From Periplaneta americana (Eukaryota; Arthropoda; Insecta; Blattodea; Blattidae): a stretch of 64,000 bases of DNA. The notes under the pieces are model-generated. The model saw only the letters and a program-made list of their open reading frames with translations. It was not told where the DNA came from and ran no database searches. Below are positions 1-62,080 of this stretch, piece after piece. Every line of letters starts with the position of its first letter. Position 1 is the first letter of the stretch. Location: NCBI RefSeq assembly GCF_040183065.1, contig NC_091123.1, positions 113,992,821 through 114,056,820 on the forward strand, read 5' to 3'. The position numbers and the translations under genes were made by a program.

Positions 1-1219
1 TATACCAGAACAATGGAAGGAGTCCATAATTATACCTGTCTTTAAGAAGGGGGACAAGACTAACTGTAGTAACCTTCGAGGAATATCACTTTTGTTGACT
101 TCGTACAAAATTTTGTCCAATATTCTTTTGAGAAGATTAACTCCTTTTATGTAGATGCAATTATTGGGGGTCATCAATGTGGGTTTAGGCGTAATAGATC
201 GACTATTGATCAGATATTTTTGTATTCCACAGATATTGGAGAAAAATTGGAAATATGAAGGTGCAATACATAAGTTATTCATAGATTTCAAAAAGGCATA
301 TGACTCGGTTAAGAGAGAATTTTTATATGATATCCTTATTGAATTTGGTATTCCCAAAAAACTATTTCGATTAATTAATATGTATCTCAGTAAAATGTAC
401 AGCAGAGTCCGTATATGCCAGTTTCTGTCGGATGCTTTTCCAATTCACTACGAGATAAAGCAAGGAGATACACTATCACCTTTACTTTTTAACTTTGCTC
501 TAGAATTTGCCATTAGGCAAGTCCAGGATGACAGACAGGGTTTGGAATTGAGCGGCTTACATCGGCTGCTTGTCTGTGCGGATGACGTGAATATGTTAGA
601 CGAAAATCTACAAACGATTAGGGAAATCACGGGAATTTTAGTTGAAGCAAGTAAAGAGATAGGTTTGGTATTATTCTATTGAGAAGCTTTTTTCATCCAA
701 TCTTCTCTCAAAAAGCTTAAAGTTACAATTTATAAAGCAGAGTTATATTACCAGTTGTTCTGTATGGTTGTGAAACTTGGACTCTCACTTTGAGAGAGGA
801 ACAGAGATTAAGGGTGTTTGAGAATAAGGTGGTTAGGAAAACATGTGGGGCTAAGAGGGTTAAAGTTACAGGAGAATGGAGAAAGTTACACAACGCAGAA
901 CTGCACGCATTGTGTTTTCACCTGACACAATTAGGAACATTAGCCTATATGCAGACGTTTGAGATGGGTAGGGCATGTAGCACGTATGGGTGAATCCAGA
1001 AATGCATATAGAATGTTAGTCGGGAGGCCAGAGGGAATAATGCCTTTGGGAATGCCAAGACGTATATGGGAGGATAATGTTAAAACGGATTTGAGGTAGG
1101 TGGGATATGATTGTAATGACTGGATTAATCTTGCTCAGGATAGGGACCGATATGATGGCGGGCTTATGTGAGAGCAGCAATGAACCTCCGGGTTCTTTGA
1201 AAGCTAGATGTAAGTAAGT
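1..1219 (+). mobile_element. LINE reverse-transcriptase fragment, copy 1 (broken)
   Basis: A non-LTR retrotransposon that enters from the left edge. Translation gives RT motifs in order: FKKGDK near 45-60, motif A FIDFKKAYDS near 278-307, motif B KQGDTLSPLLFNF near 457-495, and motif C with ADD (CADDVNML) near 575-600. The longest frame is 155-682, but a stop at 152-154 and a frameshift near 160-200 break the domain. About 250 bp of the RT 3' part is missing after 670 compared with the copy at 25.9-26.7 kb. The C-terminal tail (ETWTLTL, LRVFENKVVRK, then an R/K-rich GRPRR-type segment) follows in shifted frames to about 1200. It ends in a (GTAA)n tail near 1208-1219, typical of LINEs with microsatellite 3' ends. 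The clade (RTE-like or other) cannot be fixed from here. It is non-functional. Confidence 0.85.
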
Positions 1220-2006: not shown

Positions 2007-3054
2007 TTAATTTTTTCAAATAAATATAATACAGAACTTTCCACTGCTGAGATTTTGCATATTTTTTTGTCTGACGACTTTCTTGGAGAAATACTTGACA
2101 TGTTCAATAAATTACTTGTATAAACTCCATTCTACGAAGTAAATAACTACACTATACGAATCCATGTATTAAATGCAGATGTCTAAAAATTGGATATGGG
2201 TAGCCTAGAAGGAAACAAGCAAATAATTAGAAATGAAACGATCCCGGCAAAAAAACAATGTAGATTTATTTATCTCCAATAAGGACTGAATGCGTCTCTT
2301 GTTATGCCTACTTGTTTGTCGTGTATTTAATTACGCTGTATGAGTGCACCAGACTACCCTGTTACTTTTGAACATACAAAGTGTATCAAAACATGTGGGA
2401 AAGCACTGGGGAATTGGTAGAGGACCTGAAAACGAGCAAAAAAGTTCATATAAACATATGCTCAATTTCGCTTAGTTTTTTTAAATTAATTAATTTAAAA
2501 TTCCTACCTGTAGAATGTGTATTTGCTACTGAGTCAACCTGCTAAGAACTTTCTTGGTCTCTTGCGTCGATTAAGTACCGTCATTAGTTCGACTACTTTC
2601 ATCTACCGTCTACAGGTCTGATAATGAGGGAAGTGGAATATGTTTGTTTTTATCTGCTTGTCGACCTTTAATACATAATATATTACGAAACCGTGAATGA
2701 AATAAACATTATTATGCTTAGTGGTTAGAACTTACGGCAGAGAGCACTCATTCTTTGTGCTGGGAATTCTGTCAAATGCCTTCTTGAATTAAACAACGCT
2801 GCATAAAATATACTTCTAAACCGCAAAACTGCCTTATAGTGAAATCAGTGGAAGTTCTCAATTACGTTCTCGGTTGTGGTGTTCTCGAGTTACGAGAAGT
2901 CGCTTCGTACACCAGCACAATAAACAAATTCATAATTTGTGAAGAAGATAATGATAAGGTAGACCTAGCCGTAACTCATATAACTCCTCTGAAGCTGATG
3001 TTTTTCAGTTATCGACAGAGCCTGTGAGACTTTTAGTGGAGAAAAAGTTTATGG
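2007..3054. other. unassigned AT-rich DNA
   Basis: No recognisable gene or repeat. The 62-aa frame at 2839-3027 shows no motif I know and is probably chance. Confidence 0.4.
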
Positions 3055-3357: not shown

Positions 3358-5342
3358 AGTAGGAAATATAAGGCAGACAAAATACGCCAATAGGGTTGCA
3401 GTTTATTTGGAGTGAATTGAGAAAGGATCCTCGATACTCCAAATAAAATAATCTGGGGCAGGTTTTCTTCAAATATTTCACTTAGTATATGCAAGCATAC
3501 CAATAGCCTAAAATAAACTAACCTAATCGAACCTGTCGTAGATTCGTAAATGCAAGACATATCAAAAGCCTAAACTAATCTAACCTAACCTGTCACAGAT
3601 TTCCGCACCATAGAACTTAGAAAAATGCAAGTTGAAAGTTTCAGTGTTGCGTGCTATAGAAAAGCCTCCAATGGGTAGGAAAATGCAAGCTTAAAATTTC
3701 AGGATTTCCTTTTGGATTTCCACAATGTGTTCTCGCACTCCGGTGGTAATTTTAACGTATATTTCTAGTTAGAGAGGTTATTCAAATACGACATAATATT
3801 ACAACTATGCTGTAACAATGGTAAGCATATGACAGGGGAAACCAAAATATTTAGATCCATGTTATCTGCAGACATCGAAATTGTTTACTTTTTTGCCCTC
3901 TAAGTACACGTAGACTGCAAGGTGCCCGTTGTTCCCTTTTAAAACCAGGATGATGATGATGGTGGTGGTGGTGATGGTGGTGGTGGTGATGGTGATTATC
4001 ACGCCGAAATGTTCCCGAGGACCAAGTACTTAGAAGTCGTCTGACATTTGCTCCTGAGTCAAAACCAGGCAACTGTACTCAACTGGAATTTGAATGAATG
4101 CCCGTTAGTTTTATAATAGATACGTTTATCATTACTCCATAACTGTTACTTTCGATTCCATTTACGAAAATGAAGTACGAGTGTTATCGTCCTTCAGTGT
4201 AGACTGGGTTTACATTCTTTGGTTTAAGTTTGTGACATGTTGTCTTACATCATGCTGGCAACGTGAGCAAGGAGTCCTGTTTCTGCTCTGTGATTGGAAG
4301 TGGTATGTATTCCTCTCAGAAATGAGGACAGAACGGTTCAAACAATCCAGTCCTTGAAAGCAGATGATGCTGCTATCAAGTATCTTACGTGCTGCATCGT
4401 ATAATCTTCTATAGTCTGTCATTACCTCAAGAAGCATAACTGGTCAGAAAATGGCCGGGTACAGCACACGGGCCATGTTCACTTTCTCTAGGTCAAGGGC
4501 TAGGTCGATAACTTTCTGTATTACACCAGGTCCAGAGGTTGATTGCTTACTACAGAATGCAATAGAGAAAATGCACTGTGTAATTCATTGGTGACCAACT
4601 CAGCTGCTCTTATGAAGCAATATGAGCACTCACGAGCAAAAAAGAGTTAACCGTTTGAGTGGGACGATTTGCTCTTGCATACTGCATGTGTGCAACGAAG
4701 AGTGCTCTTGTATAAAGAGAACAAGTTGTCACCACTTGTTTTTGGGCATTACATCTGTCTGTAGTACTTGAGGAGTGCTTAAGCCATACCAACTTTTAAC
4801 AGAAGTATCACAGAATCTCTCCCCGAGATCCGATCGCGATCGCTACACTGAGAGCCATAACCGACTGACATTCTGGATCTTTTTTGAATAGTAAATTTAT
4901 GATTAATGTTAAATGTTTCACTTCTGCAAACTTTAGAGAAACAAAACGATAGACCTATCTAGTACTCAGCCAAGACCATTTACATTCAATGTTCATAAAA
5001 CTTGTAAAATATTTTCCTTTTGAAAATAAAACATTAGAATATTTAAATTTGGAGCCTTATCTATGTCATACACATCACTAATAATAAACAAATATTTCTG
5101 AAAAAGACTTTTTCATTGGACTTCTCAGTTTGTGCAGAATGGCTGTTTAGTATGTAATTTTTCTTTATGCCAGTCTCTGTATAGCGACTTCTCCTGGCTT
5201 TTTGAGCAATATTTTGCATATTTAGCAACTTCAAGTAAATTTAATTAAGGGTTATGAATATGAAAATGATAATTTTTACGAACAAATTAATGAATCTTTC
5301 TTAAAGTATCATAAGACGCTGATTAATTCGAAATCTGCTCCA

Positions 5343-5880: not shown

Positions 5881-6270
5881 TGACATCAATGGACGCAAGT
5901 CGCAATAGGCATGACGTAATATTAATCAAAGCTATTTCTGTTTGGATCCCAGTGGCGGACTCTCAACACAAGCATCTGAAGTAGACTATACATTAAGGAT
6001 TCATACATATATGGACAAATTATGTTTTATTTCACTTCAATTTTTACTATGCCATAAAAAGTTAGGAAAATACGTCACAAATTGCCACTCTTAATAAGTT
6101 ACAACTCGTAAATTTTCGTCTGTTAATCAGGATCTTTGTTTAGATTTTACAATTTTTAGTTTAGAAACCAATTGTTCGGAAATATACTGAATGTAGAGCC
6201 AAACATTGCAGCTATGTAGTGGGCGGCAAGCGACTTAGACAGTTGGAAAGCATTTCATATAAATCTAATA
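5881..6270. other. unassigned AT-rich DNA
   Basis: Nothing recognisable between the SINE and the mariner derivative. Confidence 0.4.
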
Positions 6271-6874
6271 AGCAAACATTCTGATAGGGGCAGATAAAAA
6301 AGTTATTTTCTTTCTTTTACCATATTAATAATGTCAAAAAATTGCTTATACAAATTTTAGTCACTCGACCGCAATTACGAGGGCCGTAAAAAATAAATTC
6401 GCCAGGGGCCGTTAACAGAAAGAAAACAACAATTTCATTGGAAAAATTTATTGGAACAGACACAGCAATTGTTGAGCTAATTTTCAACATATTCCCCACC
6501 GGAATTGAGACATTTGTCTTATCGTGAGATCAACAGAGAAGTACAGACAGCTGTCAAACGCTGGTTCCGATCCCAGGCGGCTGACTTCTACGACACAAGG
6601 ATACAAAAATTAATCCCAGGGTATGACAAATGTCTCAGTTCCAGTGGGGGATATGTTGACAAATAGCGCAATAATTATTGTATCTCTTTCAATAAATTCT
6701 TCCATGCAATCGTGCTTTTTTTCTGTAAACAGCCCCAGGGAAAATCACTTTCTCGACGGCCTTGTAATTGCGGTCGAGTGGCCAAAATTTGTATAAGCAC
6801 TTGTTTTGACATTATTAACATGGTGGAAGAAAAAAAAATTAAATTTTTTATCTGTCCCCATCAGAATGTTTGCT
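6271..6874. mobile_element. mariner-derived element with about 235-bp inverted repeats, copy 1
   Basis: The left arm (about 6271-6506) starts AGCAAACATTCTGATAGGGG. The right arm (about 6638-6874) ends with its reverse complement. Between and partly inside the arms lies a transposase C-terminus. The repeats are far longer than usual mariner termini and include an antisense copy of the last transposase codons, so the element looks like two 3' ends joined tail to tail. Related copies are at 16.3-16.7 kb and 40.5-40.66 kb. Confidence 0.8.
6526..6666 (+). pseudogene. mariner-type transposase C-terminus
   Basis: An open frame of 46 codons plus stop reads EINREVQTAVKRWFRSQAAD, then FYDTRIQKLIPGYDKCLSS and SGGYVDK-stop. 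FYDTxIQKL..YDKCL followed by YV(E/D)K-stop is the usual C-terminal end of a group of insect mariner transposases. The catalytic DD(D/E) region is absent. Only the tail survives, so it cannot catalyse transposition. Confidence 0.85.
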
Positions 6875-7289
6875 TGGAACATGCAATTTTTACTGCATTT
6901 TCTATGTACTGCGATTAACAAAATAGCTCATTGATTTTATGATTAAATGAACACTTTTTTTTAAATAAAATATGAAATATTTAGAGTGGTAATGGAAAAT
7001 TTCTATTTTTAAGTATGGAGTGATTATAAAATTTTTTTCCTTTTTTTTGTAGCAAAGATATAGGAAAAGATATGTGTGATGTTTTTCTGAATACGCCACT
7101 GGTCTTGCAAAAAAATCGAACATTTTACTAAAAAATTGAACATACACTTCATTTTGAAATATGAAAATTTTTAAGAATATATTTGTTAATAACCCAGACA
7201 ACCCATCACCGTAAACAACAGCTTGTTACGAAACCTCAAAATAAACCTCGGAATGGGACTGATTCTCTGGCACGACCACAGCAAAGGAA

Positions 7290-10545: not shown

Positions 10546-12335
10546 TTCATAGAGTTAAAAGCTGATTGTGTTGAATGAATAAAACATTGTTTTGATTTAC
10601 AGTAACTTTTCGGAGACAATTTATTTCAGATAGGATTATAAATCATTGCAACTCGTAGTTATTGTTTCTGCTATTTATTACAGTTGACCCATTTAAAAGA
10701 AACAATTTGATAAATCTAAAATATTGTGTACAGACATTTGTCATTCCTTATTGTTCACGTCTCTGCTGATGCAAAGTTCGAAATTCTAAAAACAGTATAT
10801 CAGTAACAGAAGCGTGTGCGTATGTATAAAATTTGCACCCTCGTTAATTAAATTAGTACCATATCAAAAGTTAAGCAGTGAAAGCTTTTGATGACAGCTA
10901 AACGACAGGTTTAGTAATCCTTGTAAAGCGTCATATCGCAATTTTAAGTTCCATTATACTTCGAAGTACCGGTACAGCGCAAAAGCTTATATAAAATTAC
11001 TTTTAAATTTAAAAAAAAATGTTGGTACAAGAGTAAATAAATAAACGCACAAAAATTATCCTGGCACCAAAAATAAATCATTCAGTAATGCAATGACGAC
11101 ATAAGTACTTATGCGGTGAAGTGATTCCTAGAAAATATTGAGAAGTTTGAAGGTGTTGTAGAAGATTAATGTTGTAATGAAATGAATAAAAATACTCATG
11201 TCTTAATTTTTTTTTTTTTTTTTTTTTGCTGATTATATTGTAAGTAGTGCTCTCAAGAAGTTGCCTGGCTACAAAATGCAAATATGTTGTAGTTAAAGAT
11301 TGCGATGTGGAATTGAAGGTACCTAAAGATCTCGCAAGTTACGTTTAGGTGAGCAATAGGGGTGGTTTAAAGCAGCCGATATATTTTGTAACAGATCTAT
11401 TTGTTGATGTAGGTCTATACAGATCGTCACAATATTAATTAGTGTACAGTATGTGTAATTTTATAGATTCAGGTTGTCATATACCGGTACATTGAAAAAA
11501 AAATTCAATGCAGAAAATGTTAATATTATTTTATGATGTAGATATCTTATGTTCTTTTAAAACTACTCTTAAAACAACTGGAGAAACTTGTGACTAATAG
11601 GCCTAGGCATATATTTATGAACAATTATTTAAAATATAACGTGAAAAGAGGCAAAAACGTTAAGTTCAATCATTTAAATGACAACATAAAATAATGTACA
11701 ACATAACTGCTTTATAACAGTTCTATACTGTAATTTAATTTATGTTTCACCCTTTCCAGTTGTTCCTCTTTCCCAATTAGATAAAAAAAAGAATTCGTCA
11801 ATTTTTTCCCCATTTTAAACATAACAGGTACTGTAGTAGATTTGATGGCTTTCAATTTCAACCTACATTGGCGCCCGTGACAAGTCATTTATAAGTATGG
11901 AGAGAATTTTGTCTCTGATACTTTTTAAAATCGGGAAAAGAAGTGAAAAGAGCTTCAAGAGACATTACTATTTGAGTCAGAATTATGCATTTCAGATGTT
12001 TTCACTGTTTTATCTTCAAAATCTAACCCTAAACTGCATTTATTTTTACTAATAATGAAATTAGTAGTTAAAACACCTTCATGGAAATAACGTTAACAAT
12101 ATTGATAAATTTTAATACCTTTGCTACTTTATGAAACTCTTTGTTAATATTATTATTTATTTTAGTAATATGAGCGTTTACAGTAATAAGTAATATTATT
12201 AACTAAAACTTCTATGAAACAGAACAGTAATAATATTACATAATGTTGTTACCTTTTTAGTAATAATATTAAATTATTACTTTTATGAAATAGGCCCCAA
12301 GGTATTAAAACGATGTTCCAAGTATCGCTGTAAAT
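10545..12335. other. unassigned AT-rich DNA
   Basis: No gene recognised. There is a run of T at about 11210-11227, and many AATATTATT-type strings near 12.1-12.3 kb. Confidence 0.4.
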
Positions 12336-14240: not shown

Positions 14241-15115
14241 GTTATATATTTTTGGGCCTAAATTACTACTATGATTAAATACTGTAACAGTGTTGCATTT
14301 TGGTTCAAACAATATTAAAGAATTCATATATTTTGTTTCATAACTATGAGAATACAATTCAAAATTATTTAGATTTTTATATATGAATTTTATTAATACA
14401 ATATAATAAATTTGTCTTATTTTAAGAACATTAAAGTCCAAAAACAATTTTTGAGATGGAAAATCAGTAGGTTTATGAAGACATATTTTAATCATTTTCT
14501 TTTGTAATAAACAAAGTGAATTAAAATTGGATTTAAATAAGTTACCTCATCCTATAATTCCATACATAATTACCGATTGAAATAAAGTTATTGACAAGTA
14601 TCTACGTAAAAATTATTATTTTTTGGTCCTACAGAATAATCTGTTATAGTAACAATTAATATTAGAGGAGAAAAATTCGCTCCGGCGCCGGGGATCGAAA
14701 AAACTCTGGAGGAGAGGGCCGGTGCTGTTGATTGGACTTCGGCGTAGCTCAATTATGAGAGCGCTTGGTATGTAAAACCAAGGACCCGGGTTCGATCCCC
14801 GGCGCAGGAGCGAATTTTTCTCCTCTAATATTAATTATTGACAAGTAATTCCTCAATAAAACAAAATAGTATATTATTTTACGTAATTTATTACAAAGGT
14901 AATTAAAGTATTGGTTCCACTTTAAATGAATGTCGAAAATTATGCCTAAATATTTAACTTCAGAGGACTCCTTAATAATCGGACATTTACATTGTATAAG
15001 GCAACAATCAGAGTTATGTAATTTAATACTTAATATAGATGTAGGAGATTTGTTACATTTTTCAGATAATGAGAATGGAATAATTATGGTTTTATTTTCG
15101 TTGATAGAAAGATAA
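14241..15115 (-). mobile_element. LINE reverse-transcriptase C-terminal half, split by a tRNA-derived insertion
   Basis: On the minus strand the segment 15115-14848 encodes SEVKYLGIIFDIHLKWNQYF and NYLCNKLRKIIYYFVLLRNY, typical of the RT thumb region. The segment 14587-14241 continues LFQSVIMYGIIG-stop-GNLF and then LHKPTDFPSQKLFLDFNVLK. The two halves are in the same frame once the insertion and one target duplication are removed. The stop replaces an expected Trp. Related fragments lie at 49.2-49.9 kb (plus) and 60.06-60.24 kb (minus). The polymerase core motifs A-C are not present. Confidence 0.8.
14601..14834 (+). mobile_element. tRNA-derived SINE with a 43-bp inverted repeat
   Basis: A tRNA-like head spans about 14738-14810: A box TAGCTCAATTATGAGAGCG, an anticodon arm TTGGT-ATGTAAA-ACCAA with GTA (tyrosine-like) in the loop, and B box GGGTTCGATCCCC. 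The segment 14792-14834 is repeated in inverted orientation at 14656-14698 with one mismatch, so the insertion can fold into a long hairpin. A 13-bp target duplication TTATTGACAAGTA at 14588-14600 and 14835-14847 marks it as a retroposition event. It is not a functional tRNA-Tyr gene: the usual animal tRNA-Tyr intron is absent and the acceptor stem does not close well. Confidence 0.8.
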
Positions 15116-15364: not shown

Positions 15365-16284
15365 GGTATTCAGTTTCTCTCAAATTAAACCTGTAACTCT
15401 ATAGCTACAGTACACTGTTATGTTTAGTTCAGATTGCGTAATTGCTGGTCATTGCTTCGTGACACAGGTACTACACGGACCTTGCCTTCTTTCGAGCGAC
15501 AGTATCAGGAGTTCCAAACTACCAAGCTACTACTAATACTCCAAGTACTATTTAGCTATCTTATAAATCGATTTCTAAACAAAAAAAAAAAAGTGGAAAA
15601 TTTATTATAAACGCTACTTTCAGAGTACAAAATTTGAAGGTCATATCCAACCTTCCAGTGTTGAACGTTCTCTTGTGAGTAATGATGATGAAAATTACGA
15701 TTATTCTTCAAGGATTGGACATTAATTAGTAGTGTAGCATGAAATTTTGAGAAGGGGACGCTAACTCATGTTGCCTTTCATGTAGTGAGGAAACACATTG
15801 CAAAAATATCATCTCAAAATAATTAGTAGTAAAATTTAATAATTTCATGTTAACACATACACCTAACAAATAAACTAGTACCGTAGGTATAATTTACATT
15901 AGCTGATTTACTGGCATGTTTAGAGAAATTACAATCCATTTTGTTCTATAGGCCTATTAAAAAAAGAGCCGTTATCTCGCGAACTCATTGTCACATTAAA
16001 GTGAACTGAATGAACTCTGTCCAGAATTTGTTTTACACATACTATAAAAAGATAAATCGCATACTGAATGCCAATACTCGTATTTAGAAACGTAATATTT
16101 ACGTAAACGTTGATCTCTACATAAATTCGCAAATAACTTACGTACCTAATATATAACTCCTCAGAATTATGCTTTCTTCATACTTAGGTCTAATATTACA
16201 GAGAGATAGTAGGCTATGTCACTTTGGATTTTCGCCTATGACCACACTTTTGTTCATAAATCATTGCGCATGATCAAGTGATTT
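15365..16284. other. unassigned AT-rich DNA
   Basis: No gene recognised. It contains one TAGGCCTA at 15949-15956. Confidence 0.4.
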
Positions 16285-16715
16285 TTCCTCAGGCCGTTTA
16301 CAGAAAATAGCACAATTTCATGGAAAGATTTATTGGAACAGATAGGCCTACAGCAATTGTTGCGCTTTTTTTCAACATATTCCCCATCAGAATTTGTCAT
16401 ACCGTGGGATCAACAGAGAGGTGCACAACACGACACAAGGATACAAATATTGATCCCATTGTATGACAAATGTCTCAATTTCAGTGGGGAATATGTTGAA
16501 AAATAGCGCAACAATTGCTGTATCCGTTTCAATAAATCTTTTCATGAAATTGTGCTTTTTCTGTAAACGACCCCAGGGAAAATAGTTTCTGGACGGCCTC
16601 GTAATTGCGGTGGAGTGGCCAAAATGTGTATAAGCACTTGTTTTGACATTATTAACATGGTGGAAGGAAAAAAAATTAACTTTTTTTATCTGCCCCCATG
16701 AGAATGTTTGCTTTG
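16285..16715. mobile_element. mariner-derived element with long inverted repeats, copy 2
   Basis: Same family as 6271-6874. The left arm is shortened and begins near TTTTCCTCAGGCCG. The right arm runs to GAATGTTTGCTTTGAG. A transposase tail ends at the stop 16504-16506 (DTRIQILIPLYDKCLN, then FSGEYVEK). About 45 bp of the tail present in copy 1 is deleted here. The left arm carries TAGGCCTA at 16343-16350, where related arms have only TA. Confidence 0.8.
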
Positions 16716-16924
16716 AGCTCGATTTTCTCTGTCACGTACCATTTTTCCGCAACACGCATTGGCATATTTAGCAATGTGAATATAGCGTTATTGAATTTAA
16801 TATGGAAAAGTGATGAAGTGAAACATGTCCTGTGGCAAATATTAAAGTTATATTTTACAAAACTTATTAGGCCTAGATTGTCATAATTAACAACTCACAT
16901 TTAGACAAAATGCTTTATACCACC

Positions 16925-17560: not shown

Positions 17561-20500
17561 CTAGATTATGTTTCTGATCCTCTTTAACTGGTTAGTACAA
17601 AATTTGCATTAGAGCACTGGATTATGGATGCAGAAAAATCACTAATATTTTAATAACATAAAACATAAAATATAGTTTTGCGTAACAATGGTGCGTGATT
17701 TGCCATTTTTTATGTAATTTCCGGCTTCAGCACACAAAAAGACATAAAAGAGGATTTTCTCATTGCGGGCCTGTGTTATCTAAGCTGCCGACAAACTTAC
17801 ACAGATGATACAGAAAAATCCACTGAACAGTGAAGTCTAATTACGTTTTCTTCCAAGTCTAACGATTAAAAAAAATATTTTTAGAAAGTCTGTGTTTTTG
17901 TAAAAGTGCAGGGCTGAGAAACTCACCATATCAAGATCACGGTGAGTGAGAGTAGCTTAAGTCATCTGCAGTTAAATATTAGATATTTATTGCATGGTAT
18001 TAATGGATATTATATACTGTGTGTCACCAACTTTGTGATAATTCACTTTTTTCGGAAAGATAATATGTGTTGAATCAACTTGAGAATGCTATGGGCATCG
18101 TCGACCTTCTGTACACTCAGCATTTGTTGCTGTTGCTCGGAGATTAAAATTTTAAAGGCACATTCAACGTTTGTTGCTTATAAATTAAAATTTTAGATGG
18201 AATAATTAATCTGTTCACTAAGTACTATCTATCCAACAAAAATGTTATTACATTACAATTGAAGTATTAAAGTTTGAGATAGAAGGAAACTTTATTAAAC
18301 TTTTTTTCTTTGTTCAGTGTTCTGTGTTGTTCCATCTAAATAAGAATAACAGCTTATATTCTCTACACCAAGAATGGGGATAAGCCTCTCTCTGAGCGTG
18401 CAGCTGGTGGATAGAAATGATAAACAACACAGAGGTTCAGTGACGTGCCATTCACAATGAGTGTAAGACGTACTTTGCCTACATAAATACATTTAATTTT
18501 ATGTTTACAATAAATGTAAATATAGCTTACACATTGACGACACTGATCGATTCTTACGTCCGCGATGAACACAAATGCGGGAGTAGGAGGAGACCTCTAT
18601 CTGAAGATCGCTCAAGCTAACGCATAAATCCCCAGGCCTGATCTACACTGTATCTATATACACATGTGTAGATTCAAATGAATTTTTAGATCACAATAAT
18701 ACCATTTATGGAGTTTCTACCTGCTCTGTAAGCAGGCAGACAGACAGAGGAGCCTACGATCGGAAAGATAGACGAAAAGACAAGCGAACGGACGAAATGC
18801 CAGAATCGGCTTCTTTGATAGAAATACTGGAAGTGTAGTTGTATTTTCATAAACAGGGACATCATTTTGTTTTTATTAACATTTCTGATATTAACCTGGC
18901 TATACCTTTGGATTAACGGTCAAGAACCCTCTTCGACGACCGAAGTTTGATGACACTACTGTAAAACACAAACAAAGCACTTTACTAGGTACAGGAGGGA
19001 AGAAAAGTAGTGCATCCATTTACGTAAACTGGGAACTATTACGATTCTGACTTTGATAATTTTCGTTAGAATTTTATTTAATCAAAATACAGTAGGCTAC
19101 AGTATTAACAATAATTGTTTTTACTCATTAACTGAACTATACAAGCGGACGTATTCATTATGCAATGTATAGTACACTGTCCACAGCACATTAGCATACA
19201 ATATGGAGAGTGCATTTAAATTGAAAAATAATCAAAATCTGGATATTTTAAACAAATTGTTAAAAATGATTGACGTTCATTTCGATACAGGCTTCAGTTA
19301 TTTTGTGCATGTTATCGAAAACGTTTTTCAGTATAGTTTCTGAAATGTAATGTATTTTTTATTGAATGTAATTCTTTAATTCTTATATTGTTGTAGGATA
19401 TTTAGCAAACACATCTGTTTTACAGTAATCTCAAAAGAAATAATGTAAAGCACTGAAATCAGTCGACATGGTGGGCCATAATCCTGCGCCTGTTGAAGTA
19501 ATTATGTACTTACTCTATAACAGAATACCTTACGTACTGTAAATTAAATCTTCACTTCTGCCCGATCCTTAGATAAATTTACTCAAATTAAAATTTGCTT
19601 TTTACTGTCCGTCCAATTGGTTATGTCGCAGGGTGGTAGAAAGGGAGGGGAATCAAGTGGAAGTTACTTACTTAACGAGGAAATTTATTTAAATTAATTT
19701 AAACACTTTATAATATTACGTAGACGCCCAATTCCTAAAGCAAATGTTTTCAGAAAAGAGCCAAGATTGCCCAGTCATTAGCCTTTACAGAAGGGCCAGC
19801 AGAAATGAGTGGGGGAAACCGGGATGCGACGTAACCAAACGGACACAGTACCTGTGCGAAAATATGATTAAATGATTAATACACTTCGTTCACTGGAAAA
19901 TACGACCATATTTCTGGAACATACTATACTCACTCACTCAGTACTATTTACTGGGTCATTCCATACAAAATCTTAAGAATATGCCAGCGATGTCATGAAT
20001 TTTTTTGGGCTTTTAATATAATGTAATTATGAAAATAAATTAAACTGCCAACTATGACCGCCATATCATTAATATTTTAGTCATACAGATGGCTGAAAAT
20101 GAGTGGTAGTTACATGTTATCCATCATTTAAAATATACTAGACACCCTATATGAAGTGTCATCGAAACTAAACAGACACCATTGTAAACCTGAATAATCA
20201 TATTTTAATACCTTAAAGACCAATCCGAATAACATTAAGGCATATGCGAATTTCATTCGTATTAAAGAAAATTTTATTCTTAATCCATCTCCCAAGTTTT
20301 ATGACTTTATCTAAAAAAACCTGTGAATAATTAAATTAATAATATTATTAATTTTTGTTCCGACGGTTGAAAATCGCTTGCTATGTGTGGCGGTCGCAGA
20401 GTTCGCGAGACTTCATAACGATGAGTAATCTCAAACGTCCGCCTCCCTGACCTTGATCCCGCAACATTCTGTACGATGGTAGAGCCTACCTACCTCCTTG

Positions 20501-22840: not shown

Positions 22841-24260
22841 TTATTTCTTTCCGTCTTGGTTTGACTCTGTCTCTGTTTCAAGCCCTCCGTTTTTTTTCTG
22901 TTTTTCTTTCTGTATTTGCTTCTGTTTTTCTCTCCTCCGTATCTGTCACCTCCATATCTCTTTCTCTGCATTTTCTTCTCTTTCTGTCTTCCCCTTTCCC
23001 TGTCATTGTTTCTTTCGGTCTCTGTACCTGTCTCGAACTGTCTTCCTGTCTCCTCCTGTATCATTTTTTCTCTGTTGGCATCTCCATCTCCTTATCTTTG
23101 CATCCGTGTCTGCATTACATTTGTTTGCAACTTTCTCTATCTCAATTTCCTTCTGTCTCCAGGTCTTTCTTTGTTTCTATTTGTTTTCTCCTGTCTCCAT
23201 CTCAGTGTCTGCCTCCGTCTCTGCCTCTATTTTGTCTCCATCTTTCTTTGTTTCTATTTGTTTCCTCCTGTCTCCATCTCAGTGTCTGCCTCCGTCTCTG
23301 CCTCTATTTTGTCTCCATCTTTCTTTGTTTCTATTTGTTTCCTCCTGTCTCCATCTCAGTGTCTGCCTCCGTCTCTGCCTCTATTTTGTCTCCAGGTCTT
23401 TCTTTGTTTCTATTTGTTTCCTCCTGTCTCCATCTCAGTGTCTGCCTCCGTCTCTGCCTCTATTTTGTCTTCATCTTTCTTTGTTCCTATTTGTTTCCTC
23501 CTGTCTCCATCTCAGTGTCTGCCTCCGTCTCTGCCTCTATTTTGTCTCCATCTTTCTTTGTTTCTATTTGTTTCCTCCTGTCTCCATCTCAGTGTCTGCC
23601 TCCGTCTCTGCCTCTATTTTGTCTCCATCTTTCTTTGTTTCTATTTGTTTCCTCCTGTCTCCATCTCAGTGTCTGCCTCCGTCTCTGCCTCTATTTTGTC
23701 TCCATCTTTCTTTGTTTCTATTTGTTTTCTCCTGTCTCCATCTCAGTGTCTGCCTCCGTCTCTGCCTCTATTTTGTCTCCATCTTTCTTTATTTCTATTT
23801 ATTTCCTCCTGTCTTCATCTCCGTGTCTTCTCCGTCTCTGCCTCTCTTTTTGTGTCCACTTGTCTTCGTTTATTTTTTTGTCCTCTTTTCATTTGTGTTT
23901 CCGTTTCGTTCTCTGTTTGTCTTTATCTTCAATTTTCTCTGCCTTTGTTTCTGTTTCCCTCTGTCTCCGTATCTCTGTTCCATCTCCATGTCTCTAACGC
24001 ATTTTCTGCTTCTATTTCTGCCTCTGTCTTTCTCTGTCTCTATTTATGTTTCCTCCTCTGTCTGTCTCCGTTTTGTACATCTGTTTGTTTCCGTTTCTGT
24101 ATCTGTCTTCGTCTTTCTCTGTTTTGTCTCAGTCCGTCTCATTTCTGTCATAATCTGTGTGTTTATATCTCTACCTCCATCTCCACATCGTTGTCATCTT
24201 ATCTACCTCCGCTTCTTTTATGCCGTCTGTCTCCGTCTACGTCATTATTTCTCGTTATTA
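22841..24260. repeat. pyrimidine-rich tract with a 77-bp minisatellite
   Basis: Nearly 1.4 kb of plus-strand C/T-rich DNA (TCTG, TCTCC, TTTC words). Its core, 23155-23850, is nine tandem copies of a 77-bp unit containing CTCAGTGTCTGCCTCCGTCT and TTTCTTTGTTTCTATTTG. The copies at 23155 and 23388 have a 2-bp insertion (79 bp). Flanks are degenerate related sequence. All three plus frames stay open (400-498 codons) because pyrimidine-rich DNA cannot easily make stop codons. The peptides are one repeat read in rotating frames, so I do not call a gene. Confidence 0.9.
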
Positions 24261-29855: not shown

Positions 29856-30560
29856 TAGAGATGAACAGCGATCGAGAAAACGAGACTAACAGCGCCCGCA
29901 AAGCCGAAAACCCCCACGACAATGTTGTATTACGTCGCGTCCTTGATGTGAAGACTGATTGTGAATCTTCCGAGACTCGATATTGTGAGCAAGTCCCGAA
30001 GTCAGCAGTTGTTTATACCCGACTGAACTTTTATCTACTTTGGCAACTGTTATTGTATGTGTAAACAATCAAGTAGCCTATTTGAAACATCTCTACCTTT
30101 CAGTGTATAATAATCCGTTCCCCAGTCTTTATTTAATTACTAGGCCCTTATTAAAATGCTAGGAATTTTCTTTTCATATGTTTAAGATCAAGTGTGCTAT
30201 CTCAAGTAAAAATATATTAATGTCATGTTTTATGTTTCTTAGAAATGCAAATTTATTTGAGAATTGTTTTTTTTTATTTATATAACCATAGATCGTATCA
30301 TATAGCCTAATAGAATCAGAACATTTTTATAACTAAGATACTGTTCTGTTTTGTCTTTTTGTCTCATTTAAACATTTATAACGTTATTTATTTCAATGAC
30401 GTATGTTATTCAAAGTTACGAAATCTTTCCACGCCGACCAAATGCTATTTCCAGAGTGACGAGCGAGTCTCGAAGCTCACGAGAATGACGAGCCGAGACT
30501 CGAAAGACAAATGCAGCGAACACAGCGAGCGAGAGCGGCAGTTAGTTTTGTTCATCTCTA
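29856..30560. mobile_element. hAT-like non-autonomous element, about 705 bp
   Basis: The left end TAGAGATGAACA and right end (read inward on the minus strand) TAGAGATGAACAAAAC form terminal inverted repeats of the TAGAGATG class seen in hAT elements. The flanking octamers ATTGACAT (29848-29855) and GTTGACAC (30561-30568) agree at 6 of 8 positions, consistent with an aged 8-bp target duplication. No transposase is encoded. Confidence 0.6.
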
Positions 30561-32199: not shown

Positions 32200-32738
32200 T
32201 GAGAGACTACTATTGCTACTACCGTCACTACTACTGTTACTGCTGCTGCTGCTACTGCTCCTACTACTACTACTACTATTGATACTACTATTTCAACTAA
32301 TACTGATCGTTTTATTGTTGGTTTATCATTTCTATCGATAGCGATCTATATATCACTGTCACTACTATGAATACCACCACTACTACTACTACCGCCAATA
32401 ACACTACTTCTGTTGTTGATGCTACTACTGTCAATAATACTTCTGTTGCTGCTACTACTGCCAATAACACAGCTTTAGTTGCTACTGCTACTACTCCATT
32501 TAACACCACTTCTGCTGCTACTGCTACTACTACTGCCAATAACACCACTTCTGTTTCTACAACTACTACTGCCAATAACACCACTTCTGTTGCTGCTACT
32601 ACTGCCAAAATACTGCTTATTTTGCTATTGTTACTACTGCCAATAACACTACTTTTGTTTCTACAACTACTATTGCAAATAACACTACTTCTATTGCTAC
32701 TGATACTACTGCCAATAACACTTATGTTGCTAGTACTG

Positions 32739-32773
<35 letters not shown>

Positions 32774-33176
32774 GCCAATATCATTATTCCTGTTGCTGCT
32801 ACTACTGTTGCCAAAGACACTTCTGTTTCTGCTGCTGCTACTATTGCCAATAACACCACTTGTGTTGCTGTTATTATTTCTGCCAATAATATTACTTCTG
32901 TGTCTACAAATACTACTGCCAATAACACCACTTCTGTTGCTACTACTACTGCCAATAACACATTTCTGTTGTTACTGTACTACTGCCAATAACACTACTT
33001 TTGTTGCTGCTGTTACTACTGTTAATAATACCACTTCCGTTGCTGCTATTACTGCCAATAATATCAGTTCTGTTGCTACTACTACTGCTGCTAATAACAC
33101 CATTTCCGTTGTTACTACTCCTACTACTACGACTACTACAATAACACCACTTCTGTTGCTCCTGCTACTGCTTCTA
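32200..33176. repeat. ACT/TGC triplet-rich minisatellite
   Basis: Long tracts of CTACTA and GCTGCT words interspersed with a repeated phrase GCCAATAACACCACTTCTGT. Spacing between repeats of the phrase is irregular (roughly 30-55 bp). The 350-codon plus frame (NTTSVAATTANN-type, then Leu-rich after a frame slip) and the Val/Ala-rich minus frames are translations of the repeat. A repetitive Thr/Asn-rich secreted protein cannot be formally excluded, but frame slips and absence of any non-repeat domain argue against it. Confidence 0.85.
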
Positions 33177-37615: not shown

Positions 37616-38084
37616 CCGCTCTACCGATCCTTCATCATATGATAACGCAGAATTCCTGCACGGAAATATCATATGTACTTCGGTACATCCCAATAATATG
37701 ATAGGCCTATGCGTATATAATCACTTAGTGATTTAAGACTGCGCTCATTCCGCCGGATCCCGGCCACTTAGTCACTCGTAATGTGTGCACCTCTGCACAT
37801 TAGTTGGACATTGTGCCACTGTCACACATCTGTGACACAGTGCATGAGAGTTGGCCACTAAAGGGAAACTAAGAGGTGGAGCTTAAACTGAGAGGATTCA
37901 ATCCGGCATCGGAATTGGAATCCGGTGTGGCTTAGTGGATAGAGTGTCAGCATGTAGAGCTGGAAACCTGGGTTCAAATCCCGGTGCCGGAGAGAATTTT
38001 TCTCTGCTCCACCGATCCTTCATCATATGATAACGCAGAATTCCTGCTCGGAAATATCATATGTACTTCGGTACATCGCAATAA
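37616..38084 (+). mobile_element. tRNA-derived SINE, apparently in tandem with a second copy's tail
   Basis: A tRNA-like head at about 37919-37992 has A box GTGGCTTAGTGGATAGAG and B box GGGTTCAAATCCC, followed by GAGAATTTTTCTCTGCTC and a tail. A tail segment of about 80 bp (ACCGATCCTTCATCATATGA...) is present both at 37616-37696 and, 388 bp later, at 38004-38084. The direct spacing suggests two tandem units, the first reduced to its tail. The 37740-37915 part upstream of the head (CCGGATCCCGGCCACTTAGT...) appears to belong to the element. Confidence 0.7.
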
Positions 38085-40529: not shown

Positions 40530-40655
40530 TCAATTTTTCCACGAACAGAAGAACAGTGGCCAAAATTTGCAAAAATACTTCTTTTGACACTATTAACATG
40601 GTGAAAGAAAAACAAATTAACTTTCTTATCTGCCCCTATCGGAATGTTTGCTTGT
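40530..40655. mobile_element. solo arm of the long-inverted-repeat mariner family, copy 3
   Basis: Matches the right arm of 6271-6874 (GTGGCCAAAATTTGCAAAAA, TATTAACATGGTGAAAGAAA, ATCTGCCCCTATCGGAATGT). No left arm is present. It directly abuts the minus-strand transposase remnant of another family. Confidence 0.7.
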
Positions 40656-42181
40656 AAGTATATTATGTCTACCGGATGAATGAATACCTTTTTAAAACAT
40701 TTTCTCTAAAAATAATCATAGACTATTTTTATTTCTGCGTATGGTTTCAAGTTTATCAAAATTCATGTTACTGAGTAGGTAGAAGACGGGACTGCCTCTT
40801 ACCTCTGTATTACTAAGGGAATTACAGTTCCGAGTAGTGAACAATTAGTGAACTTCTATATCAAAGTTCAGCATTAAGAACTTAGGATTTTCTCTGGTGA
40901 GCCATTTCATAAATTACTAACATATTTAGCATTCATTTTAATTTAAACTACCGATTTTCATAAGTAAAAAAACTATGTAGAAAATGGTTACAATATGTGT
41001 GTAATTTTAAGTGAATTATATTAAAAATGCATTCCATAGGCTCATATGTATTTAAGTGTTATATCTTATATTTGGAATTGTTTGTATGTCCTTTAAATTA
41101 CAAGTGACGATAACCTACAAAGCGATAATATCCATAACACGTTGAAGGATGTGATTTGTTATGGAACGCGTGAAAATTGCAATGGGGAAGCATGTATCAT
41201 CTTCGCGACTCATTTTATTTCAACTGAAATGGAGAAGATGCAATTAAAACCTCTTCCGAATAGTCCTTCACCGCTTTCTCTCTCATTTAGAACGTTTACC
41301 ATGAACACTGCCGTCTCCTTGTGGGTTCGTTTTATCATCGGTATATTTTTGCTTTTCCATAATGGTTTGATATGCGGAGTTTGTGTATAAATTCCAAACG
41401 ACTCTGTTCACATGCTGCTTCATGTTTATGATTTCGGTTGTTTCACAACAAAACAGAAGAGATGACTGTCATACATAACCAGTAAACATATAATTATGAA
41501 ACTTTGCATGAGGATGATGATGAAATTCTTTGGGTGTCTGTTTCCCACGTTTATAAATAACTGTTTCCTTCTTGAGGGGAAGAAAATAATATTGAAATAC
41601 ATTAAATATATTCGTAATCTACGCCATTTAGATGCCGTTACTTCATTAAAATTGGAATTTGAGAAACATTGTTAACATAATAAAGTGTCCTAAACTCTTA
41701 TCATAGATGCGAAAAATATTTTCTGTCATTAATTACTTCTTACTGTACAGTTCTCTACAAAGGTAGATACTTAGCAGTTCCACACAAACGTTACTAAAAA
41801 ATTCAATTTCTTCCTTTCTTTTCTCGTAATTTGATAGTTGTGTTGTTACATAAACTTCAATTTTAACGAAGTTTTCAGCGATGTCAAAGTTTTCTAAGCA
41901 CTTCCCAGATATCAATGTCACCTTGAGTTTTTTTTTAAATTACTCATCATTTCTTCATCGTTAACATCAAAGAGAAGTTCTAGGAAAGTGGAAGTACATA
42001 ATACATCATGATGAAAGCGTACGAATCAGTTCGAAAGTATAGAATTAAACAAATTCTGTCACCTATTTGTACAAATTTGTACACTGAATATTCAATACAG
42101 AAAACTTTGCAAAAAGATGGGAATGACTGGTATAAGAATATATTGCAGCTCATTGCTAATAACATGGCCGTCAGTAGCAGT
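40656..42181. other. unassigned AT-rich DNA
   Basis: No gene recognised. The 82-codon frame at 41142-41390 shows a hydrophobic C-terminus but no family signature. Confidence 0.35.
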
Positions 42182-61854: not shown

Positions 61855-62080
61855 TAACAGAAAGCCACAATTTAAGTCACACAGAATTGTGTGCACTCAA
61901 AGTTCGGTTTCTGGCGTCTTGTCAGCCCATTTGAGTTGTGTGGATATAAAGGCAAGTTTTGTGACTGTGTCTTATATGGTTCCTAGGGTAGCTCAGTCGG
62001 TAGAGCATTCGTGTGCTAAGCGAAGGGTCCCGGGATCGATATCCGGCCTCGGAATAATTTTTCCTTTGAAATTATTTAAT
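61855..62080 (+). mobile_element. tRNA-derived SINE (asparagine-like), copy 3, plus strand
   Basis: The 5' segment (TTTCTGGCGTCTTGTCAGCC) and head (TAGCTCAGTCGGTAGAGCAT; GGGATCGATATCC) match 39495-39700. With copy 2 it forms an inverted pair whose arms share about 80 bp of head. Confidence 0.8.

Follow-up and report, generated by a model that had tools for sequence, protein, structure and literature searches.

How six bases come to be present in one arm of an inverted repeat and absent from its counterparts is the question raised by a stretch of the Periplaneta americana genome on contig NC_091123.1 (the window below; 64,000 nucleotides at full length). The bases in question complete the 8-bp palindromic word TAGGCCTA. 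We considered whether they were inserted at a TA, how often the same happened in the rest of the genome, and what could have inserted them.

The insertion in the mariner fold-back repeat

We take the fold-back repeat that carries the word (Table 1) to be a mariner relic, following the preliminary description of the window and the C-terminal motif; in a Pfam scan, the window frame 16387-16731 had no match. In the self-BLAST of the window, copy 2 of the repeat aligned with copy 1 (16292-16716 against 6407-6878, 77.9%). According to the preliminary description, copy 2 had gained GGCCTA after a TA in its left arm. We confirmed the gain, and the arm sequences quoted there were correct. Only this arm, one of the four covering the point, has the extra 6 bp; the arm not quoted earlier, the right arm of copy 1 (reverse complement AAGAGATACAATAA), also has the shorter form and agrees with the claim. 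The point is occupied by TA in two of the three arms without the 6 bp and by CA in the left arm of copy 1. Because the extra bases are confined to a single arm and the others show TA twice and CA once, TA is likely to be the ancestral state at 16343, with TAGGCCTA derived from it. Once the 6 bp were deleted in silico, both arms of copy 1 aligned better, with E-values changing from 5.9e-21 to 2.0e-24 and from 1.6e-20 to 5.5e-24.

Besides these repeats, the window has two long tandem arrays with 77-bp and 36-bp periods (23154-23885 and 32380-33125), whose long open frames are of low complexity. There are also three tRNA matches (14738-14810, 37921-37992 and 61982-62054), which may be the heads of tRNA-derived SINEs; such SINEs are mentioned in the published repeat survey.

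Table 1. Copies of the fold-back repeat and candidate footprint words in the window. Spanning paralogues were sought in the 364-kb sample.
Feature	Position	Strand	Basis
TAGGCCTA, TA + 6-bp insertion GGCCTA	16343..16350	.	left arm of mariner copy 2; other three arms without it
Mariner copy 2, fold-back (inverted-repeat) part holding the insertion	16281..16583	.	self-BLAST against own reverse complement, 74.8%
Mariner copy 1, same fold-back repeat, both arms without the insertion	6270..6879	.	self-BLAST, arm comparison
Partial third copy of the fold-back repeat, outer end only, short of the insertion site	40555..40657	.	self-BLAST
TAGGCCTA	37702..37709	.	1 of 4 spanning paralogues (L007) exactly 6 bp shorter at TA
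TAGCCTA	941..947	+	18 of 19 spanning paralogues exactly 5 bp shorter at TA
TAGGCTA	19093..19099	+	4 of 4 spanning paralogues exactly 5 bp shorter at TA
TAGCCTA	30303..30309	+	sole spanning paralogue exactly 5 bp shorter at TA
TAGGCCTA	11598..11605	.	same class; no spanning paralogue in sample
Further TAGGCCTA	starts 15949, 16868, 22750, 31729, 37149, 40012, 53886, 55700, 56032, 57207, 57922		no spanning paralogue in sample
TAGCCTA, candidate 3-nt footprint	2201..2207	+	class count
Other TAGGCTA/TAGCCTA candidates	starts 3504, 7561, 13088, 13116, 16210, 22111, 27982, 28041, 29024, 30074, 31844, 39089, 53848, 56883, 58329		at 3504, 30074, 39089 and 56883 spanning paralogues present, none exactly 5 bp shorter

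Abundance of the word in the window, the sample and the genome

The window has 14 copies of TAGGCCTA, compared to 0.50 in dinucleotide shuffles and 0.37 expected from an order-2 Markov model; this number is not a matter of chance. The related class TAGGCTA/TAGCCTA was seen 19 times with 4.0 expected, which makes about one in five of its members background.

Adding 300 kb to the window gave a sample of 364 kb (323,722 bases after masking of tandem repeats). With 51 copies in the masked sample and 2.3 expected, TAGGCCTA was the strongest of the 133 TA-N4-TA words. The counts were 74 (21.8 expected) for TAGGCTA/TAGCCTA and 138 (73.3 expected) for TACAGTA/TACTGTA, the footprint of Sleeping Beauty. 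Other words were high as well, such as TAAAATA (361 compared to 219 expected) and TAGGTTA/TAACCTA (77 compared to 35.9); counts alone are, therefore, no proof of insertion. In a sample of 264 kb, the 8-mers with the greatest over-representation were TAGGCCTA and a run of C.

Genome-wide counts were made on 3,231,669,367 bases in 91 contigs (the published assembly is described as 3.23 Gb in 91 scaffolds; PMC12774602). We found 457,526 copies of TAGGCCTA, part of them in tandem arrays (e.g., C1:1034003-1034514), compared to 16,914 copies of the reversed word. For TAGGCTA, with both strands counted, the number was 615,663 compared to 187,645 for the control, and for TACAGTA/TACTGTA 1,322,490 compared to 780,007. 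The reversed control words of TAGGCCTA, TAGGCTA and TAGGGCCCTA contain CG, a dinucleotide present at 0.86 of expectation; these controls are, therefore, slightly low. The excess over control was near-equal for the 4-nt and the 3-nt products, about 441,000 and 428,000, respectively.

The copies of TAGGCCTA are unevenly spread. The variance-to-mean ratio of counts per 10 kb was 2.9 in the 364-kb sample, 1.65 with locus L014 left out, and 2.2 on G000:C1:490000-1150000; ten copies lie inside L014, a single 10-kb locus. Such over-dispersion fits local hopping and equally regional duplication, and we draw nothing from it. At G000:C1:1034003-1034514, seven copies are spaced by exactly 84 bp, a tandem array that captured the word.

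Comparison with empty sites

The test covered all TA-Nk-TA words with k between 1 and 4. We aligned the 120-bp flanks of each occurrence to the remainder of the sample and recorded whether a paralogue exactly k+2 bases shorter was present. Among the 51 sites of TAGGCCTA in 364 kb, 11 had a spanning paralogue, and at eight of these one was exactly 6 bp shorter. All other TA-N4-TA words pooled gave 10 of 588. The highest rate among the TA-N3-TA words was that of TAGGCTA/TAGCCTA (9/21), followed by TACAGTA/TACTGTA (5/38), while all the remaining words of this length gave 21/660. Fisher P values were 2e-11 for TAGGCCTA, 4e-8 for TAGGCTA/TAGCCTA and 0.01 for TACAGTA. In the same test on 364 kb, TAGGTA/TACCTA was not inserted beyond background (1/40 compared to 13/676 for other TA-N2-TA words, 14/716 for all of them; Fisher P 0.56), and TAGCTA was inserted at 0 of 16 sites. 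An earlier run agrees: words restricted to G and C gave 0/8 for TA[GC]4TA and 0/10 for TA[GC]3TA, and random TAN4TA gave 6/353.

The extra bases are thus missing from homologous sites, and the target TA is duplicated on both sides of them: the empty paralogue has TA at 7 of the 8 passing TAGGCCTA sites and at all 9 of the TAGGCTA/TAGCCTA sites. The one exception for TAGGCCTA is L017:469, where the empty copies have TG or TT; at the 16343 site itself TA was seen in two of three empty copies. The TA-anchored 6-bp gain inside repeats, claimed earlier from this locus, is in this sample a derived insertion.

Testable TAGGCCTA sites numbered only 11, and five of them come from locus L014; the test was passed at two of these five and at all six sites outside the locus. 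In an unmasked run on 264 kb, the motif common to two further sites, L014:6504 and L014:6865, reflects their being copies of one another (97.6% identical). Paralogues of the same length were in the majority at none of the 11 TAGGCCTA sites and at 8 of the 21 TAGGCTA/TAGCCTA sites, a number in line with the 30% of this class expected by chance. No exact empty paralogue was seen at 12 of the 21. Part of the TAGGCTA/TAGCCTA class is, therefore, background.

We also compiled a spectrum of indels blind to any motif (1,255 indel carriers). The commonest 5-bp indel was TAGCCTA (6 of 53) and the commonest 6-bp indel was TAGGCCTA (5 of 23). TA was the commonest 2-bp microhomology; it accompanied 20 indels between 4 and 8 bp long, TAGCCTA and TAGGCCTA accounting for 11 of these, and other TA insertions occurred one to three times each.

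Further footprint classes are possible. In the 364-kb sample TACCGGTA (11 compared to 2.2 expected) and TACGTGCTA (11 compared to 1.4) were likewise over-represented, and TAACTTA had a paralogue 5 bp shorter at 3 of 21 sites.

Target choice and age of the insertions

Both products favor a TA preceded by a purine and followed by a pyrimidine. Flanks of the R-TA-Y form were found at 31 of 54 TAGGCCTA and 41 of 77 TAGGCTA, compared to 24.8% of all TA. The preference was weaker in the six other words compared: TACAGTA (49/141), TAGGTTA (23/85), TAAAATA (103/443), TAGGTA (40/177), TAGGATA (18/89) and TACACTA (18/75). Genome-wide, the form RTAGGCCTAY made up 237,347 of the 457,526 copies (51.9%). 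From the preference common to both products we infer that a single process made them and that a transposase selected the target. The preference is not private to these two words, as TACAGTA, of the CAG class, shows it in a weaker form. TAGGTTA looks like one telomere unit (TTAGG), and TAGGTTA/TAACCTA may be interstitial telomere-like sequence; without a strong R-TA-Y preference and inserted at only 2 of 29 sites, it was set apart from the footprint words.

The TAGGCCTA scars look young, since words one mismatch away from them are few. We counted 32 transition neighbours compared to 20.5 expected and 45 transversion neighbours compared to 40.8, an excess of about 16 beside 51 intact words. From these neighbours we estimate a scar divergence of some 3-4% per site, although the error is wide; the estimate comes close to the level published for the DNA elements of this species. 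DNA transposons are reported to form 24.3% of the P. americana genome, and its DNA elements, mainly Tc1-Mariner and hAT, to be most abundant near 5% Kimura substitution (PMC12774602).

Search for the parent element

Terminal inverted repeat (TIR) pairs with TA-GGC ends were searched for in 264 kb and in 364 kb, and none was convincing; the 241 TIR pairs tabulated for 364 kb have no GGC row. The pair at L014:586-1102 (264 kb) was rejected, with 3 mismatches in ATT-rich low-complexity sequence, and so were two more pairs with 6 mismatches each. One GGC family-boundary pair (L003, L028) at TA-GGC proved to be a single repeat displaced by one base in the upstream direction, and no boundary. Larger insertions at TA, compared with empty paralogues in the 364-kb sample, included none that was convincing with GGC ends, and TAGGC outside TAGGCCTA and the TAGGCTA words was not in excess in the sample.

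What we found instead were TA-flanked elements with CAG ends (e.g., CAGGGACATCATTTTATTTT), with GGG ends (GGGTAAAC...) and, in one case, with A(G/A)GC ends. The element at L004:5567-7278 is of the mariner type, with a perfect 20-bp TIR GGGTAAACATTGGTAATTTC, GGG...CCC ends, a TA duplication and a 71-aa frame that matches Transposase_1. The TA-flanked element at L025:225-1406 is 1.18 kb long, has the TIR A(G/A)GCAAACTCGGCTAA and contains a copy of TAGGCCTA. Its frame holds NLICNLDETGF, which we take to be pogo-like, and had no Pfam match above the cut-off. As a parent this element was ruled out: TA directly before its GGC end occurs only twice in the genome.

By the rule of three, finding zero GGC-ended elements in 364 kb sets the resident copies very roughly below 27,000 per genome. 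The real limit is looser, because only complete elements with good repeats inside a single 10-kb stretch could be recognized, and rarity alone may explain why no parent turned up. Still, about 870,000 scars are out of proportion to such a number of resident copies, which counts against the footprint model.

Transposases of the Tc1/mariner/pogo class are present in the genome. DDE_3 and Transposase_1 had at least 150 scored matches each, drawn from 26,193 and 19,038 first-look candidates, respectively; many of the matches had long open frames, and intact Tc1-like and mariner frames were common. Their tie to the TAGGCCTA footprint is putative. A comparison with look-alike contigs in IMG/VR gave two matches to contigs without TAGGCCTA, unrelated by appearance, and one more match (L033); another IMG/VR contig comparison gave no match.

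Footprint model and terminal bases

The reading of TAGGCCTA as a transposon footprint is well supported. We infer a transposon as the agent, GGC ends, a 3-nt stagger, and one element behind both TAGGCTA/TAGCCTA and TAGGCCTA. A cut-and-paste transposon of the Tc1/mariner/pogo class would enter at TA and duplicate it. At excision the transposase would cut the transferred strand at the element end and its partner 3 nt further in, so that GGC would remain as a 3' overhang on both flanks; end joining could pair these overhangs in two ways. With a stagger of one base, the self-complementary GC would anneal to GC and one base would be filled in per side, giving TA-GGCC-TA. In register, the pairs would be G:C, G:G and C:G, and the central mismatch could be resolved either way, to TA-GGC-TA or to TA-GCC-TA. 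No further register of GGC overhangs would pair.

The product spectrum fits such pairing and filling of 3' overhangs of 2-3 nt, and the other products tested gave no sign of insertion. Footprints of GGG-ended elements that keep three bases from each end (TAGGGCCCTA) were ruled out by count (418 in the genome compared to 1,125 for the reversed control). TAGGGTA, expected from GGG ends with a 3-nt stagger, was not enriched in the sample (17 compared to 23.8 expected), and neither was TACATGTA (13 compared to 11.4). The word that would keep both GGC overhangs whole, TAGGCGCCTA, was seen 0 times with 0.1 expected in the sample and is too rare to judge.

The preliminary description had attributed the insertion to the excision of a TA-targeting transposon whose ends, GG...CC, left their terminal dinucleotides behind. 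The derived, TA-anchored insertion of cut-and-paste form stands; the detail of the ends is not supported. Such ends predict inserted TAGGTA/TACCTA, and the paralogues (1/40) ruled out these GG half-footprints. Since TAGGCTA/TAGCCTA accompanies TAGGCCTA and TAGGTA does not, trinucleotide ends GGC...GCC with 3-nt overhangs are favored over GG...CC. The mariner-like parent with GG...CC ends predicted at the same time was not found in 364 kb, where the resident mariner ends in GGG...CCC.

A version with GG...CC ends can be saved by assuming a 2-nt stagger with both dinucleotides kept (TAGG+CCTA), one-base trims as the source of TAGGCTA/TAGCCTA, and a mariner with GGGTAAAC ends as the candidate parent. 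It draws on the TA-flanked GGG...CCC elements of the sample (the one in L004 with its Transposase_1 match, and those in L018 and L021), where no GGC-ended element was found. The Markov counts of TAGGTA and TAGCTA were slightly high (152 compared to 124.5 and 71 compared to 51.2), an excess that trimming of GG ends would equally give, and Tc1 leaves TACATGTA in the same manner. Within one repeat family, moreover, L014:553 carries TAGGGCCCTA and L014:7976 carries TAGGCCTA at one and the same TA, where the other copies have TA. Against this version are the absence of inserted TAGGTA/TACCTA above background and of inserted TAGCTA (0/16) in the sample; also, GG and GG overhangs cannot anneal, so that this version does not account for the 4-nt and the 3-nt products being in near-equal excess. 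We regard it as unlikely.

More doubtful is a footprint of the same transposon class produced by ends of another structure, or by a pair of elements with one product each. In its favor, Tc1-Mariner and hAT dominate the DNA elements of the P. americana genome (PMC12774602), and Passer, of the pogo superfamily, is described with TA duplications and footprints of 0-4 bp (PMC9976928). Speaking against it, both products share an R-TA-Y preference stronger than in the six other words, and the remaining TA insertions of the indel spectrum were seen just one to three times each. That one of these three footprint readings is correct we consider highly probable. The full account, in which a Tc1/mariner-class transposon with GGC...GCC ends left the word on excision, is the one we favor, with moderate confidence.

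Direct micro-insertion at TA by a process with no larger transposon, e.g., a nuclease with a fixed fill-in, would agree with the lack of a parent in 364 kb, the huge numbers and the low decay. We know of no process of such kind. Fixed palindrome-capable ends, TA duplication and the R-TA-Y choice are marks of a transposase, and the CAG class behaves alike and has TA-flanked resident elements; we consider micro-insertion improbable. The strong over-representation and little decay of TAGGCCTA would also suit an ancestral or selected motif, e.g., a protein-binding site, but this is contradicted by the empty-site test, with its paralogues exactly 6 bp shorter at 8 of 11 sites and mostly of the same length at none, which leaves it a very slight chance. 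Slighter still is the chance that the scars are somatic, left by programmed DNA elimination in which germline elements are excised in every body cell: fresh scars in a somatic assembly would account for low decay and a missing parent, but two products per site would make the assembly mosaic, and such elimination is not known in cockroaches.

Implications

If correct, the footprint reading explains why TAGGCCTA stands, together with a run of C, at the top of the over-represented 8-mers in the 264-kb sample. In its widest form, which we put forward tentatively, a single unnamed Tc1/mariner/pogo-class transposon with GGC...GCC ends, living by hopping at low copy number, may have written about 0.9 million near-identical scars (about 5 Mb) in the recent past, and the scars would record how its overhangs were joined. 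Excision scars are usually studied in reporter assays or in small surveys. If the reading is true, one genome offers hundreds of thousands of natural scars with a simple product spectrum, from which excision numbers, target choice and end-joining preference could be measured in an animal germline over evolutionary time; past jumps could be counted even where the transposon is nearly gone.

Comparison with known systems

Among the matches listed in the open-access literature, mostly judged by title and the start of the abstract, none described the TAGGCCTA phenomenon. One Blattella germanica primer contains the word (PMC7650587), which is too little for conclusions.

Ends starting with GG are usual in Harbinger elements, with a TIR consensus GG(G/C)CC (PMC4423477). 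A PIF/Harbinger or ISL2EU footprint was nevertheless rejected: their duplications are TWA (3 bp) and AT (A-AT-T), respectively (PMC4482050), while the duplication here is TA, about half of the time in R-TA-Y. A survey of excisions in rice, where footprints were, as here, deduced from sites with and without the element, lists 94 excisions, most of them accompanied by deletions or filler and 8 of them perfect (PMC4423477); the scars described here, on the other hand, are near-uniform and number in the hundreds of thousands.

Sleeping Beauty, a Tc1-like element, leaves the excision footprints TACAGTA/TACTGTA (PMC4378557). Its pattern of TA, three terminal bases and TA, with the central base resolved either way, has the logic of TAGGCTA/TAGCCTA; the overhang pairing for CAG ends is our own reasoning and not that of PMC4378557. 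The ends differ, CAG there and GGC here. As AG cannot self-pair, CAG ends would give no 4-nt product, and TACATGTA is not enriched. The CAG words themselves are also inserted in P. americana (5/38, P 0.01).

The Tc1 element of C. elegans has a 2-nt stagger and CA ends and leaves the footprint TACATGTA, with one-end products TACATA/TATGTA being usual. Its scar, like that of TAGGCCTA, is an 8-bp palindrome of two TA and four terminal bases. Unlike in Tc1, the corresponding one-end product here, TAGGTA, is not inserted beyond background.

Passer, a DD35D member of the pogo superfamily, has TA duplications and footprints of 0-4 bp and is reported from fish and from Blattella germanica, for which the table row gives 43 and 13, taken here as all and intact copies (PMC9976928). 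Likened to the scars by footprint length and TA duplication, Passer is no more than a possible parent lineage of TAGGCCTA.
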